This document shows positions 7,393 to 22,627 of a stretch of 35,170 bases of DNA, in pieces. The DNA comes from a virus, in IMG/VR virus record IMGVR_UViG_3300034279_000245, positions 1-35,170 of that record; one strand, given 5' to 3'. The first letter of the stretch is position 1. Each line of letters opens with the position of its first letter. Under the pieces are notes generated by a model. The model was not told the origin of the DNA and did not search any database. It worked only from the letters and a program-made list of their open reading frames with translations. The position numbers and the translations under genes are program-made.

Positions 7393-8345
7393 TGACTGAG
7401 GAACAAACACAAACCACTCAGAGCATCACTCCAACAACTGGAGTGGTGCTTCTTGCGTTTGGCAAAGCTCAATATTATTGGGCAACATATAACCTTGTTT
7501 TTAGCATTAGAAAGCACAATCCCAATGTGAGAATCACAGTGCTCTTTGAGGACATAGGAAAGGCTTTATCTCATTGCCCCGAGATAGTTGACTATGTTGA
7601 GCAAGTTGGCAGCATCGATGCGGAAGATATCTACACAAACAAGAAACTTGATCCAGGCAAGGTCAAGATTAATTTATACAAGTATTTGCCATACGATTGC
7701 AATCTCTACCTTGATGTAGATGCGATTGCACTCAAAGACATTCAGCCGATGATTGACGAGCTTGCTCAATCCGGCAAAAATTACATAAGCCATACAGTTG
7801 GCTATCACACCATTGATAAGGGCAGAGACTTTAAGGAGATGCAGTGGGCGTGGGCGGATAAGATGTGGGCGCATTTCAATTTGCTTGAGTCATACGTGAT
7901 GCCTGCAATCAACAGCTCCATGCAGTGGATTGTGAAAGGCTCACAGAGTGAGGCGTTGTATCGCACTGCAAAAGACCTGTATTTTAATAATCCAATACCA
8001 GTTAATGAGTTGCGCATGAAGTGGGGCGGAGGGCAGCCAGACGAGTTGTACATGAATGTCGCACTTGCAATATTGGGAATAGATCCTGCGCTTAAGACTT
8101 ACACTCGAAATGACGGCAGCGAAGGTGGCATGATTCACTTTGCGATGCAGAGAGGCTTAAGCTTTGAAAAGATTACAGAAAACTATTACTTACAAAGCTA
8201 CTACGGCGGCGCAAGATTCACTCCAAGATTCTACATTGACTGGCTTGATAGAATGCTTAGTGCAGACTTCAAGGCAATCGGCAAAAGACATATATACCTA
8301 ATTAGCAGAATAGCAGAAAACAAATACGCAGATGGAAAACGATAA
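7392..8345 (+). CDS. Glycosyltransferase, GT-A fold
   Basis: 317 residues starting at the ATG that overlaps the previous stop (TAATG). It should transfer a sugar from a nucleotide-sugar donor. It has the GT-A signature DVD at residues 108-110 in the context LYLDVDAIAL, which binds the metal and donor diphosphate, an N-terminal Rossmann-like strand (VVLLAFGKAQYYW) and a later GGGQPDE segment. A frame extension upstream of 7392 lies inside the previous gene and is not used. With the methyltransferase that follows it forms a two-gene insert between tail and head genes. Likely targets are a virion protein or host surface glycans; nothing in the sequence decides between them. Confidence 0.75.
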   Translation: MTEEQTQTTQSITPTTGVVLLAFGKAQYYWATYNLVFSIRKHNPNVRITVLFEDIGKALSHCPEIVDYVEQVGSIDAEDIYTNKKLDPGKVKINLYKYLPYDCNLYLDVDAIALKDIQPMIDELAQSGKNYISHTVGYHTIDKGRDFKEMQWAWADKMWAHFNLLESYVMPAINSSMQWIVKGSQSEALYRTAKDLYFNNPIPVNELRMKWGGGQPDELYMNVALAILGIDPALKTYTRNDGSEGGMIHFAMQRGLSFEKITENYYLQSYYGGARFTPRFYIDWLDRMLSADFKAIGKRHIYLISRIAENKYADGKR

Positions 8346-8904
8346 GCCAAAAAAAGGCAGACCAAAAAAGACAGTTGTGACAACTGAGACATTCACAGAG
8401 GTTGCTCGTCACGACTGGAACTCAGAGGATGAGTGCGGCGCATTCTTAGCGACACTTGTAAAGATGAGCAAGTACATGACGGTGCTTGAGATTGGAGTCT
8501 TTGAAGGTGAGACAACGCAGCATCTTATAAAGGCTTTGCCAAAAGGTGGGCAGTATGTCGGCATTGATATCAATGATTATCGTACAGATGCAACCAAGCT
8601 ATACATGGCAGAGGGTGGTAAGTCGATTGATTTTATCTTGGGCAATTCACTTGATGAGTTGAATAAGTTGCCTAAGAATCATTTTGACCTTATCTTTGTG
8701 GATGGAGATCACAGCTTCGAGCATGTGATTAAAGAGTTTAAGTTGGTTGAAAAGTTGGTAAGTCGTGGAGGTGTTATTGTTTACCATGACACAATCCACT
8801 TAGATGGCCCGAGAAAACTTGTAGAATACGCAGCGCATTTTAACTATAACAATGTCACGCTTAACACAACTGAAGGGCGTGGTATCTCAATCCTACACAG
8901 ATGA
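8332..8904 (+). CDS. SAM-dependent methyltransferase, class I
   Basis: 190 residues, overlapping the glycosyltransferase by 14 nt. The SAM-binding motif I is at residues 53-60 (EIGVFEGE), an acidic residue ends strand 2 (D79), and the DLIFVDGDHSFE block is at 119-130, as in Methyltransf_24-type enzymes that often act on sugars or small molecules. Residues 5-14 (KPKKGRPKKT) form a basic AT-hook-like tail, a hint of nucleic-acid contact. No DNA methyltransferase motif (NPPY, DPPY) is present, so sugar or glycan methylation fits the neighbour better. Confidence 0.75.
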   Translation: MENDKPKKGRPKKTVVTTETFTEVARHDWNSEDECGAFLATLVKMSKYMTVLEIGVFEGETTQHLIKALPKGGQYVGIDINDYRTDATKLYMAEGGKSIDFILGNSLDELNKLPKNHFDLIFVDGDHSFEHVIKEFKLVEKLVSRGGVIVYHDTIHLDGPRKLVEYAAHFNYNNVTLNTTEGRGISILHR

Positions 8905-18941: not shown

Positions 18942-19141
18942 TGGAAGTATATAAACTAACATACGAAGAGGCTCAGAGCCTTGTTGGCATTCAGTTTATG
19001 CCCGATAATTATTTCAACCCCATCATGGATGCTGATGGAAATCATATAATCAGCATTGAAGAAGTTGAGCAGTGCTCAATTGATTGGGTGAAAGCATTAC
19101 CTTTGATAACCTATAAACCTATTGAATTATGGCAGGAGTAA
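18941..19141 (+). CDS. Small hypothetical protein in the fibre cluster
   Basis: 66 residues, acidic, no membrane segment. It starts at TAATG with the lectin-like gene and overlaps the next fibre gene by 13 nt. Position suggests a fibre chaperone or attachment factor; no family is recognised. Confidence 0.6.
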   Translation: MEVYKLTYEEAQSLVGIQFMPDNYFNPIMDADGNHIISIEEVEQCSIDWVKALPLITYKPIELWQE

Positions 19142-19638
19142 AGATTACCGACTTACCATTAATTACTGAAGCGGAAAGTGGTGACTTGCTTTATATCGTA
19201 GATATAAGCAACACAACCGAATCTCCGCAAGGTACATCTTCGCAGATTTCGGTGGGGAATATTGCAGGTTTTGATAGTGGAAGCTATACTCCGACAATTA
19301 GCGGACAAACGAATGGCATATTAGTATCACCGATTTCTAGCACATACATTAAAATAAAAAACATTGTATCAGTTTCAGCTATGTTGGATATTCAATTGGC
19401 ATCAAGTGAAAATACTGGTACTTTTCAAATTGAACTTCCAGTAGCATCAAATTTCACAAATTCAAATCAATGTTTTGGCTTAATGCAATGGTCTTATGGT
19501 GGAATTTTAGCTGAAATAGTAGGCTTAACAATTGAATCAAATTCTATAAACAATACATGTATTGTAGGATTAAGTACCGCAACAGATAACATTCAATTGT
19601 TATATGCTGTAATTCAGTTTCAATATGAAATTATTTAA
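19129..19638 (+). CDS. Receptor-binding candidate, tandem copy 1
   Basis: 169 residues. The first 45 residues (MAGVKITDLP, then GDLLYIVDISNTTESP and a VGN box) are nearly the same as in the next gene, while the remaining 120 residues are unrelated at sight: beta-rich with many Ile, Ser and Asn. A shared N-terminal docking module with divergent tips is typical of alternative fibre tips. No enzymatic motif. Confidence 0.6.
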   Translation: MAGVKITDLPLITEAESGDLLYIVDISNTTESPQGTSSQISVGNIAGFDSGSYTPTISGQTNGILVSPISSTYIKIKNIVSVSAMLDIQLASSENTGTFQIELPVASNFTNSNQCFGLMQWSYGGILAEIVGLTIESNSINNTCIVGLSTATDNIQLLYAVIQFQYEII

Positions 19639-19650
19639 AATCAAACCATC

Positions 19651-20145
19651 ATGGCAGGAGTAAAAATTACAGACTTACCACCACTTGCTACGGCAGTAAC
19701 TGGAGACCTATTATACATCGTTGATATCAGCAACACAACCGAATCTCCAGAAGGAACATCTTCAAAGATTACAGTTGGGAACTTGACTAATTCGCTTAAT
19801 GTCGTGAGTGGTACATGGACACCAACATTTAGTAACAATTCAGGAGCATGTGGTAATGTGACATTGACAACTGCATACTATTCAAGAGTAGGTAATATTG
19901 TAACTTGCACAATATATGGCAGTGTTGATACTGATTTTAGTTCTCTTGTTCAGGGTGATTTTGATTTTACTTTCCCAATTGCACCAGTAAGCAATAATGC
20001 AAGAGGGGTAACATCATTTAATCAATATACTAACGGAGCAAGTGATGCTGTTATAGATGACAGAATTTATTTAAGAGCATTGGCAACAGACCCTTTAAAT
20101 TCTAATCAAGAATTTGTTGCATCATTTCAATACTCTTTGATATAA
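19651..20145 (+). CDS. Receptor-binding candidate, tandem copy 2
   Basis: 164 residues, paralogue of the preceding gene over the first 45 residues and divergent beyond. The C-terminal part is beta-rich with Thr, Asn and Phe and looks like a compact tip domain. Twelve bases separate the two copies. Its stop overlaps the endolysin ATG (TAATG). Confidence 0.6.
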   Translation: MAGVKITDLPPLATAVTGDLLYIVDISNTTESPEGTSSKITVGNLTNSLNVVSGTWTPTFSNNSGACGNVTLTTAYYSRVGNIVTCTIYGSVDTDFSSLVQGDFDFTFPIAPVSNNARGVTSFNQYTNGASDAVIDDRIYLRALATDPLNSNQEFVASFQYSLI

Positions 20146-20600
20146 TGCGGCTTAGCGACAACGGCCTGCGCCTCATACAGGAGTTTGAGGGATTGCGCTT
20201 GACCAGTTACCTCTGCTCAGCAGGAGTGCCCACCATTGGATACGGCGCAACCTACTATGCAGATGGCAGCAAGGTAAAGCTCGGGCAGACAATCACCAAT
20301 GCTCAAGCGGCGCAACTTCTCAAGGATCATGTTAAGGAGTTCGAAGGTGCAGTGCTTGGTCTGCTTAACACTACCAAGTTGAATCAGAATCAGTTTGATG
20401 CGCTTGTAAGTTTCTGCTTCAACCTTGGAGCAGCAAACCTTGCAAAGTCTCAGCTGTTGCGGTTTATAAAAGCCAACCCAAACGATCCAAAGATTGCAAC
20501 TGAGTTCCTTAAGTGGAACAGAGCAGGCGGCGAGGTTTCCACTGGGCTTGTAAGAAGACGCAAAAAAGAGGCGCAACTATACTTCACAAAAATCGTTTAA
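20145..20600 (+). CDS. Endolysin, GH24 lysozyme (muramidase)
   Basis: 151 residues. It cleaves the beta-1,4 bond between MurNAc and GlcNAc in peptidoglycan. The GH24 catalytic set is readable: E15 in EFEGLRL, C24 eight residues on (the C variant of the usual D/C position) and T30 five residues further, followed by IGYGAT. A typical NQNQFDALVSFCFNLG block follows at about 97-112. No signal peptide is seen, so export should depend on the holin encoded next. Full length for the family. Confidence 0.93.
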   Translation: MRLSDNGLRLIQEFEGLRLTSYLCSAGVPTIGYGATYYADGSKVKLGQTITNAQAAQLLKDHVKEFEGAVLGLLNTTKLNQNQFDALVSFCFNLGAANLAKSQLLRFIKANPNDPKIATEFLKWNRAGGEVSTGLVRRRKKEAQLYFTKIV

Positions 20601-20605
20601 CAACT

Positions 20606-20806
20606 ATGGCCGCAAGAAGAGTCAATAAGCCAAGGCAAGTGCTTGATATATTCATCAAGTATTGGAGGCCGACCATTGGCTCTTTGGTAATTCTCTCAAG
20701 TGTGTTTGCCCTTATCTTTAAGCAGATCACCACAGAGACTCTTGCAGCTATTGTGGCCGCAATGGTGGCCGCAGGATACATACCAAAAGCAAACGACAAT
20801 GGATGA
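20606..20806 (+). CDS. Holin candidate
   Basis: 66 residues from the ATG five bases after the endolysin stop. A basic N-terminus (residues 1-12) is followed by two hydrophobic segments, about 23-44 and 48-60, with a short link. Size, topology and place after the lysozyme fit a small holin or phage lysis membrane protein. A longer upstream frame lies within the endolysin gene and is not used. Confidence 0.65.
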   Translation: MAARRVNKPRQVLDIFIKYWRPTIGSLVILSSVFALIFKQITTETLAAIVAAMVAAGYIPKANDNG

Positions 20807-21275
20807 AGGAAGAGACTCAACGTACACTACAATTGATGAAGGCTGCGTGGTGGGCATTGGGTGCAAAGTCCATACTCATCATCACACAATTCATATCGAG
20901 CCGAAAATCGTTTACCAATCGATGGTGAAATTCACTATCTTTGGCAAGCAATATTGCACTAATCAATGGGGGCAAACTTATGAGCTTCCTGCTGATGACC
21001 CAATACCAGAGCCAAAGCCGATGCAACAGATCTACGCAAGCGATACAATCACACCTACCACATCTGCATTCTTGCTTGCTCCAAAGCCAGAGGCGAAGAT
21101 AATCATCAAGCCTCGCACCGAGTACACCGAATTTAAGCCCACAATGGATGGGCCTGTGATGGGCACGCTGCTTGTGTTTACAATTTACATCACTGCACAT
21201 TGGGCATGGAACTCAATGGCTGCATGGAATAATCTATATAGCGAACTCTCGGCATGTCTTCGCTCTTCATCTTAG
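20799..21275 (+). CDS. Hypothetical membrane protein in the lysis region
   Basis: 158 residues from the ATG at 20799, overlapping the holin gene by 8 nt. The N-terminal half is His- and Cys-rich (THHHTIH near residues 28-34, a CVVGIGC pair at 17-23). The middle is Pro-rich, and one hydrophobic segment lies at about 130-148. The topology suggests a soluble domain and a C-terminal anchor. No family is recognised. A part in lysis or in anchoring the following PAS-HisKA protein would be a guess. Confidence 0.55.
   Translation: MDEGRDSTYTTIDEGCVVGIGCKVHTHHHTIHIEPKIVYQSMVKFTIFGKQYCTNQWGQTYELPADDPIPEPKPMQQIYASDTITPTTSAFLLAPKPEAKIIIKPRTEYTEFKPTMDGPVMGTLLVFTIYITAHWAWNSMAAWNNLYSELSACLRSSS
20803..20928 (+). 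CDS. Possible nested 41-residue membrane peptide
   Basis: The ATG overlaps the holin stop as ATGA (20803-20806), and the frame runs to TGA at 20926-20928, inside the preceding ORF in another frame. It has a basic/acidic head and one hydrophobic stretch (about 15-32). It could be a second small lysis protein. Only one of the two overlapping frames may be real; the longer one is favoured. Confidence 0.25.
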   Translation: MKEETQRTLQLMKAAWWALGAKSILIITQFISSRKSFTNRW

Positions 21276-21820
21276 AAAGATCAATCGACCTCTTTTATGT
21301 GGTCACCGACCTTGAAGGCAAGATTTTCACGAACAATGAATTGTTCAAGAATTATGTTAGCCATATCAAGCCGACCAAAATCACTGATATCATCAGCATC
21401 GAAGGTGACAAAGCAGACTTTATCGAAGCCATTGAACGAGCTCGCAAACATTCGCCTGAGCCTTCAAGAGTCTATGCTCGCACACGACAGAAGAACACAA
21501 GCGACAGATATAATGTTTGGAATTGTTTTGCGATTGATGACACTCTTCACTTTGTTGGCATCCAGATAGTCGATGTAACTTCCATCAGCTCGCATGAGCA
21601 TGAGCGGCAAAAGAATCTTCTCGAGGAGTTTCGCTTTATGCTTAGTCATGAGTTAAGGCAACCACTTACCAATATCGCAGGACTTGTGCAGATGCTGATT
21701 CAGCACCATGTCGCTGATGATATGGATCGCAAGGAACTGCTTGGCATGATTAGCACTTCAGTCAACAAGCTTGATGATGCCATCAAGGCATTGGTAAAAA
21801 AAGCAGCTCGAGAATTATGA
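21254..21820 (+). CDS. PAS-HisKA protein: truncated sensor histidine kinase
   Basis: 188 residues. Residues about 8-110 look like a PAS domain (FYVVTDLEGKIFTNNELF at the start, FVGIQIVDVT at the end). Residues about 118-185 are a histidine kinase dimerisation/phosphoacceptor domain with an intact H-box, MLSHELRQPLTNI, H132 being the expected phosphorylated His. The frame ends directly after this helix pair. No HATPase domain (N, G1, G2 boxes) follows here or in the next gene, so it cannot phosphorylate itself. It may pair with, drain or receive phosphate from a host two-component system. It lies inside the lysis region, with ATGA coupling downstream. Strongly atypical for a phage of this size. 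Confidence 0.82.
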   Translation: MSSLFILERSIDLFYVVTDLEGKIFTNNELFKNYVSHIKPTKITDIISIEGDKADFIEAIERARKHSPEPSRVYARTRQKNTSDRYNVWNCFAIDDTLHFVGIQIVDVTSISSHEHERQKNLLEEFRFMLSHELRQPLTNIAGLVQMLIQHHVADDMDRKELLGMISTSVNKLDDAIKALVKKAAREL

Positions 21821-21999
21821 CAGACCAAGAAGCGGACGAGAGACTTGTTAAGGTTGCCGCTTGGTACGTCATCGAGCGTGAGATGCCAATCTGCGTGGCA
21901 TTGCAAATCCTGCAAGCAGAGCTCAATGACAAGCGACTATTCTGGGAATCATCAAAGACATTGATTAAACTCATTCAAGATGGCATCTGTACGTACTGA
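21817..21999 (+). CDS. Small hypothetical protein
   Basis: 60 residues, mostly helical, no membrane segment. Coupled to the PAS-HisKA gene by ATGA and overlapping the spanin-like gene by 20 nt. It might act with the PAS-HisKA protein because of the tight coupling. No motif is recognised, and it is not the missing ATPase domain. Confidence 0.6.
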   Translation: MTDQEADERLVKVAAWYVIEREMPICVALQILQAELNDKRLFWESSKTLIKLIQDGICTY

Positions 22000-22627
22000 A
22001 ACGATATATTTGATTGCGCTAATTGTGCTCTTGTTCTTGTTGCTAAAAACTTGCGGAGAAAACATTGCGGATGATTACCGCCTTAAGCACACGATATACG
22101 AGGACAGCATAGTTATAGCCTCGCAGAAGAAGATAATCGCACAGGCGGGCTCTGATGCAGCCAAACAAGCACAGCAGATCGCTGAGCTCGAAGTCAAAGT
22201 AAAGAACGCATCGGAGGTTGTAAAGATTGAGACTCGCACAATCATCAAAACGCAGATCAAGTTAGGCGATACAGTGATGATTGAAAAGAAGCCATACATC
22301 CAACTGCCAAAGCCATTCCTAAAGAGCACCGAGTGGTATACAATCGGCGGCATGATTAACCGACTTGGATGGTTGCATATTGATTCGCTTGTGATTCCGG
22401 CTAAGTTCACCTATGCTGTTGGTGACACCATGCGCACTGGCTTCGTCAACCGACTGCTTAATAAGAAGGATACTGTTGTGCGCCTGAGAGTCGACAATCC
22501 AAATGTGCAAGTGGTAGGATTGGAGAACATCTACATCAAGCAAGACAAGAAATGGCATCAGACAACTGCGTTTAAAGTGGGAGTTGGAGTGCTGATTGGA
22601 GTTGCGGCAGTTAGTGCTGCAAAATAA
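21980..22627 (+). CDS. Spanin-like membrane protein with coiled coil
   Basis: 215 residues. An N-terminal membrane anchor (about 8-24, ending KTCGE) is followed by a Lys/Glu/Ala-rich coiled coil (about 38-80), a compact domain (about 85-190) and a second hydrophobic segment at the C-terminus (about 195-212). Rz-type inner membrane spanins have the same anchor plus coiled coil and are encoded beside the endolysin. The extra C-terminal segment is unusual. The alternative is another periplasmic phage membrane protein of the lysis cassette. Confidence 0.55.
   Translation: MASVRTETIYLIALIVLLFLLLKTCGENIADDYRLKHTIYEDSIVIASQKKIIAQAGSDAAKQAQQIAELEVKVKNASEVVKIETRTIIKTQIKLGDTVMIEKKPYIQLPKPFLKSTEWYTIGGMINRLGWLHIDSLVIPAKFTYAVGDTMRTGFVNRLLNKKDTVVRLRVDNPNVQVVGLENIYIKQDKKWHQTTAFKVGVGVLIGVAAVSAAK

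Follow-up and report, generated by a model that had tools for sequence, protein, structure and literature searches.

The lysis region of the virus record IMGVR_UViG_3300034279_000245 encodes a protein that resembles a PAS-type histidine kinase but ends before the catalytic ATPase (CA) domain. This raises the question of what such a protein can do, and why its gene should lie among lysis genes. The window analyzed here is the whole stretch of 35,170 nucleotides (positions 1 to 35,170 of that record), and the features concerned are as follows.

20145..20600, + strand: phage lysozyme (endolysin), identified by Pfam Phage_lysozyme (E 2e-42) and phrog_7 (E 3e-59).
20606..20806, + strand: candidate holin-like protein of 66 aa, hydrophobic at about residues 23-59, proposed from hydropathy and position; no family match.
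20799..21275, + strand: 158-aa protein with a weakly hydrophobic C-terminal segment; no family match, conserved gene order, 22-nt overlap.
21254..21820, + strand: PAS-HisKA protein of 188 aa without a CA domain, identified by profile matches, family alignment and fold matches.
21287..21586, + strand: PAS domain, about residues 12-111, with its end at D107-V-T-S-I, assigned from the fold match of a clade-B model, NCBIfam histidine kinase models and the order of strands and helices.
21590..21817, + strand: DHp/HisKA two-helix hairpin, residues 113-188, with the phospho-acceptor H132, assigned from Pfam HisKA, predicted helices and motif invariance.
21647-21664, + strand: H-box core H132-E133-x-R135-Q136-P137, invariant in 117 distinct proteins.
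21817..21999, + strand: 60-aa protein, with an ATGA overlap with the PAS-HisKA stop codon; present in 220/220 assessable loci.
21980..22627, + strand: spanin-like protein of 215 aa, hydrophobic at its N- and C-terminal ends, proposed from weak matches to phrog_2536 and DUF6549 and from hydropathy.

The PAS-HisKA open reading frame starts with ATG and stops with TGA, and H132 lies within the sequence SHELRQPLTNI. The DHp region matched Pfam HisKA (PF00512) with 35.9 bits (E 8.1e-9), the curated cut-off being 26.9 bits, and 69 of 69 aligned relatives matched the same family. The Pfam PAS signal of single sequences was weak, since only PAS_9 was matched, in 8 of the 69 relatives and with a best E value of 0.005. 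When compared with the NCBIfam models PhoR, PnpS and AtoS, residues 15/16-182, comprising both PAS and DHp, gave unbroken alignments with scores far under the curated cut-offs of these models, and the PhoR match stopped at profile position 173 of 333, approximately at the start of the CA domain.

The AlphaFold2 model of the window protein, built from 69 close sequences, was of poor quality (pLDDT 56.6) and its fold search gave nothing on PAS; a clade-B relative was therefore used instead (pLDDT 74.8, mostly 72-86 in the PAS region). The clade-B model consists of a PAS domain joined to two long helices. Its residues 6-107 matched PAS-B domains with Z of 13+ and an rmsd of 1.9-3.0 over 91-103 residues, indicating a PAS fold in this relative, and the top Foldseek matches were LOV/PAS-HisKA kinases, the best being chimeric LOV-histidine kinases. 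In the poorer model of the window protein the order of elements was nearly the same, with helices at residues 113-150 and 156-187. No membrane segment was found in the protein, which is presumably a soluble dimer, and HATPase_c was absent from every frame of the 35-kb record. The features named in the original prediction, namely a PAS-like domain, a HisKA region with an intact H-box at H132 and an end where the catalytic ATPase should start, were thus borne out by the fold and profile matches, and its conclusion that such a protein is not self-sufficient is supported.

As in the HisKA PAS kinases represented by the PhoR, PnpS and AtoS models, the PAS domain of the phage protein is followed by a DHp with the motif F-x-x-x-x-S-H-E-x-R-x-P. 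In contrast to these kinases, the phage protein has neither a CA domain nor a membrane segment, and carries Q instead of T/N at H+4. Judged by its sequence, it originated from a PAS-HisKA kinase.

Relatives of this protein are encoded in more than 300 viral stretches, the scans of viral contigs with different queries having returned overlapping sets of 112, 115, 54, 304 and 33. The complete gene was present in 243 fetched loci, representing 137 distinct DNA sequences and 117 distinct proteins. These proteins fall into four clades (A to D) with identities down to about 50%, and the most distant pair differs at 52% of positions.

The H-box was the most conserved stretch of the family. Residues S131, H132, E133, R135, Q136 and P137 were invariant in all 117 distinct proteins, every one of which contained H-E-[LIV]-R-Q and therefore Q at H+4. 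Mean column entropy was 0.35 bits for residues 124-141, compared to 0.94 bits for the PAS domain and 1.53 bits for residues 142-170 of the DHp. In HisKA kinases, E or D at H+1 is essential for the kinase reaction alone (PMC3510030). Because the H-E pair needed for ATP-dependent phosphorylation is invariant here, phosphorylation of H132 by the CA domain of a host kinase is suggested; the invariance could also reflect protein docking without phosphorylation. In an alignment with HK853, the positions altered in published rewiring of that kinase correspond to residues 140, 143, 147, 165 and 168 of the window protein. Residue 165 was invariant whereas the other four varied among the 117 distinct proteins, a suggestive pattern that would be expected if the clades meet different partners.

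The phage itself appears to offer no such partner. HATPase_c was found neither in the window nor in 13 further related records, while 14/14 control genomes were positive, showing that the protein is not a complete histidine kinase. The receiver domain PF00072 was not detected in the 14 related records, several of which may be incomplete (controls 12/14 positive). A self-contained phage two-component system was rejected on these grounds, and any phosphotransfer must therefore use host proteins. The window primase was nearest to those of Cellulophaga, Nonlabens and Flavobacterium phages (31-36% identity) and the portal protein to those of Polaribacter phages (24% identity), so the host probably belongs to the Bacteroidota, an assignment to be read as probable only. 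The Bacteroidota-type promoter consensus had no match in the window. The PAS-HisKA protein did not match known defence families. Elsewhere in the window, inside the structural module, positions 8332-8904 encode a DNA methyltransferase-like protein whose match to PADLOC mad2 of MADS defence (E 2e-13) was confined to residues 37-165; it is more likely an orphan phage methyltransferase than a MADS component.

An invariant H-E acceptor in a protein without a CA domain, from a phage without a kinase, is most simply explained if the protein works with a host CA domain. Our preferred reading, held tentatively and with somewhat less than even confidence, is that this PAS-DHp protein of the lysis cassette acts through host two-component signalling as a kinase-competent, phosphatase-dead partner of a host kinase. 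The phage DHp would pair with a host HisKA kinase in a mixed dimer, or a host kinase would dock on it, and the host CA domain would then phosphorylate H132. Subsequently, the phage DHp would keep the phosphoryl group or hand it to a host response regulator, its removal by the phage DHp being precluded by Q136 in place of T/N. The PAS domain would gate phosphotransfer by some signal, so that a host response, such as one to envelope or energy stress, might be shifted once the lysis genes are expressed.

The position of the gene between holin-like and spanin-like genes had been given correctly in the original prediction, and the conserved neighbours it had proposed to look for in other phages were found, since the same lysis genes accompanied it in all assessable loci. 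The order lysozyme, holin-like, 158-aa, PAS-HisKA, 60-aa and spanin-like gene was the same in the long loci of clades A, B and C, with the 158-aa gene of clade C being weakly similar or merely positional. Lysozyme was found in 237/237, the holin-like gene in 243/243, the 60-aa gene in 220/220, the spanin-like gene in 194/194 and a downstream 213-aa gene in 136/136 assessable loci, counts that are not independent because several loci came from the same contigs. The spanin-like assignment is itself a weak one, the match to the Rz-like spanin phrog_2536 having E 0.039 and that to DUF6549 (E 3e-4) being under the cut-off. At its 5' end the PAS-HisKA gene shared 22 nt with the gene before it in 84/85 clade-A and 23/23 clade-B genes, and in clades A, B and D its stop codon formed an ATGA overlap with the start codon that follows.

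So that the PAS-HisKA gene itself would not bias the sampling, a reverse search was carried out with a clade-B spanin-like gene as the query. It recovered 35 loci, including the previously unseen clade C, and the PAS-HisKA gene was present in all of them except L218, whose contig ends short of the spot. Furthermore, pairwise distances of the PAS-HisKA protein followed those of the endolysin (r 0.93, ratio 0.99) and of the spanin-like protein (r 0.92). Linkage, the spanin-first search and distance tracking together therefore indicate that this is a core lysis-cassette gene of the phage group and is inherited with it. This constant linkage favours a part in lysis, although it does not show control of lysis timing.

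Among the neighbours, a protein of 60-70 aa was encoded directly after the PAS-HisKA gene across the family, and in the window this 60-aa protein is a candidate partner of the PAS-HisKA protein. The 158-aa protein evolves fast (34-85% identity), and in clades A and B its gene always separated the holin-like gene from the PAS-HisKA gene; it is possibly an antiholin or an outer spanin component. Before the lysis cassette, 19129-19638 and 19651-20145 are adjoining paralogues that both begin with MAGVKITDLP, and relatives match both at one place, which suggests that a surface or tail-tip protein was recently duplicated or exchanged.

The gene's constant position and its overlaps in the cassette, evolution at the pace of the endolysin and a conserved PAS domain with invariant R72, Y74, R85, W89 and N90 would also suit a lysis-timing sensor that carries out no phosphotransfer. 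The PAS domain would then sense a ligand or the redox or energy state, and the DHp would serve as a dimeric output binding a lysis protein, such as the holin-like, the 158-aa or the 60-aa neighbour. This is a serious contender, albeit an unlikely one, and it leaves unexplained why conservation peaks at H-E-x-R-Q-P in an otherwise variable DHp. The protein might also do no more than sense lysis proteins, which counts against the preferred reading.

A phosphate sink or dominant-negative decoy that silences a host response late in infection, either as a dead half-dimer occupying a host kinase or as a drain of phosphoryl groups from a response regulator, would likewise agree with the missing CA domain and the intact H-box, and has a precedent in PIT4, a phage protein that binds several histidine kinase domains (PMC10714779). 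We consider this distinctly unlikely. A pure decoy would need neither H132 nor E133, and is counter-indicated because this pair is invariant, whereas a sink fed by back-transfer alone should be able to dispense with E133, on which kinase activity depends (PMC3510030). The late-cassette place is also poorly suited to early host takeover.

The original prediction had further allowed for a phosphatase acting on a host response regulator, and HisKA kinases are indeed capable of dephosphorylating their own response regulator as well (PMC3510030). However, this requires T or N at H+4, residues needed exclusively for phosphatase activity within the motif H-E/D-x-x-T/N (PMC3510030), and none of the 117 distinct proteins contained this motif. 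The corresponding exchange in CrdS, N375Q, left no measurable phosphatase activity and lowered kinase activity by only about 40% (PMC3510030). With Q136 at the position where HisKA phosphatases require T/N, this option is weakened to the point of being very improbable. From homology, we infer that the phage protein would be chemically ready to receive a phosphoryl group from a CA domain but could not take one off a response regulator. The H-box SHELRQPLTNI was found in identical form in a full kinase of Chloroflexi (L194:1223-3400), a hybrid kinase with the order receiver, PAS, GAF, HisKA and ATPase by reading of the sequence, and it is therefore compatible with an ordinary kinase. L194 was the sole match of a degenerate H-box pattern in the genome collection, which indicates that Q at H+4 is rare in this context. 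Since L194 shares the H-box, Q136 may be an ancestral trait rather than an adaptation, a point against the preferred reading.

Protein length was 188 aa in clades A, C and D and 186 aa in clade B, with no exceptions among the 117 proteins, and dN/dS was about 0.09 in clade A, indicating purifying selection. With so many distinct homologues of fixed length under such constraint, the reading frame appears to lie far beyond chance. None of the family members found continued into an ATPase domain; relatives with a full ATPase domain were an outcome that the original prediction had regarded as speaking against it, and the other such outcome, a profile search that detects no HisKA similarity, did not occur either. 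Although the protein does originate from a PAS-HisKA kinase, a recently truncated passenger gene with no function of its own is scarcely credible, and recent truncation was ruled out, given the fixed length in four clades, the low dN/dS, the lack of any longer relative found and the universal presence in the cassette. No cellular homologue was detected in a scan of genome contigs with the family alignment. The plasmid search gave weak HisKA matches only, matches to the HisKA region in the phage collection were short and weak only, and a viral pattern search with V/I/M after RQP returned 0 matches.

PIT4 of Pseudomonas phage LSL4 is an early protein that binds host histidine-kinase domains and alters two-component signalling (PMC10714779), and it is a precedent, also for the preferred reading, of a phage protein that targets such domains. 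An action on host two-component signalling is likewise proposed here for the PAS-DHp protein; in contrast to the early, kinase-binding PIT4, it is a lysis-cassette product and is itself a PAS-DHp protein. Similar folds in BFVD belonged to a 528-aa kinase of an uncultured Caudovirales phage, the Hokovirus HKV1 kinase and phage PAS proteins of 169-205 aa. These viral proteins have the PAS or PAS-HisKA fold in common with the present family, but are not known to be linked to a lysis cassette. In cells, Spo0B, ChpT, DivL and RetS use a DHp-type bundle for phosphotransfer or for regulating another kinase by contact, and keep a CA or CA-like domain, whereas the phage protein is entirely without one; DivL and RetS were among the matches found in our searches. 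In the open-access literature, no phage PAS-DHp protein without a CA domain in a lysis cassette was found.

In its widest form, our preferred reading would be that this phage group evolved a CA-free, kinase-competent, phosphatase-dead PAS-DHp protein as an obligatory part of its cassette, and that, through a borrowed host ATPase, the host's two-component signalling determines or goes along with lysis timing under the control of a ligand of the PAS domain. In this full extent we regard it as doubtful. A natural and evolutionarily maintained DHp without a CA domain is useful for asking what a DHp does alone. The timing of phage lysis is usually put down to holins alone. A sensor with a phospho-acceptor, universal in the cassette of a large group of uncultured phages and constrained like the endolysin, would tie lysis to host signalling; its retained phospho-acceptor half and missing ATP-using half suggest that these phages make use of signalling by the host when they lyse it.
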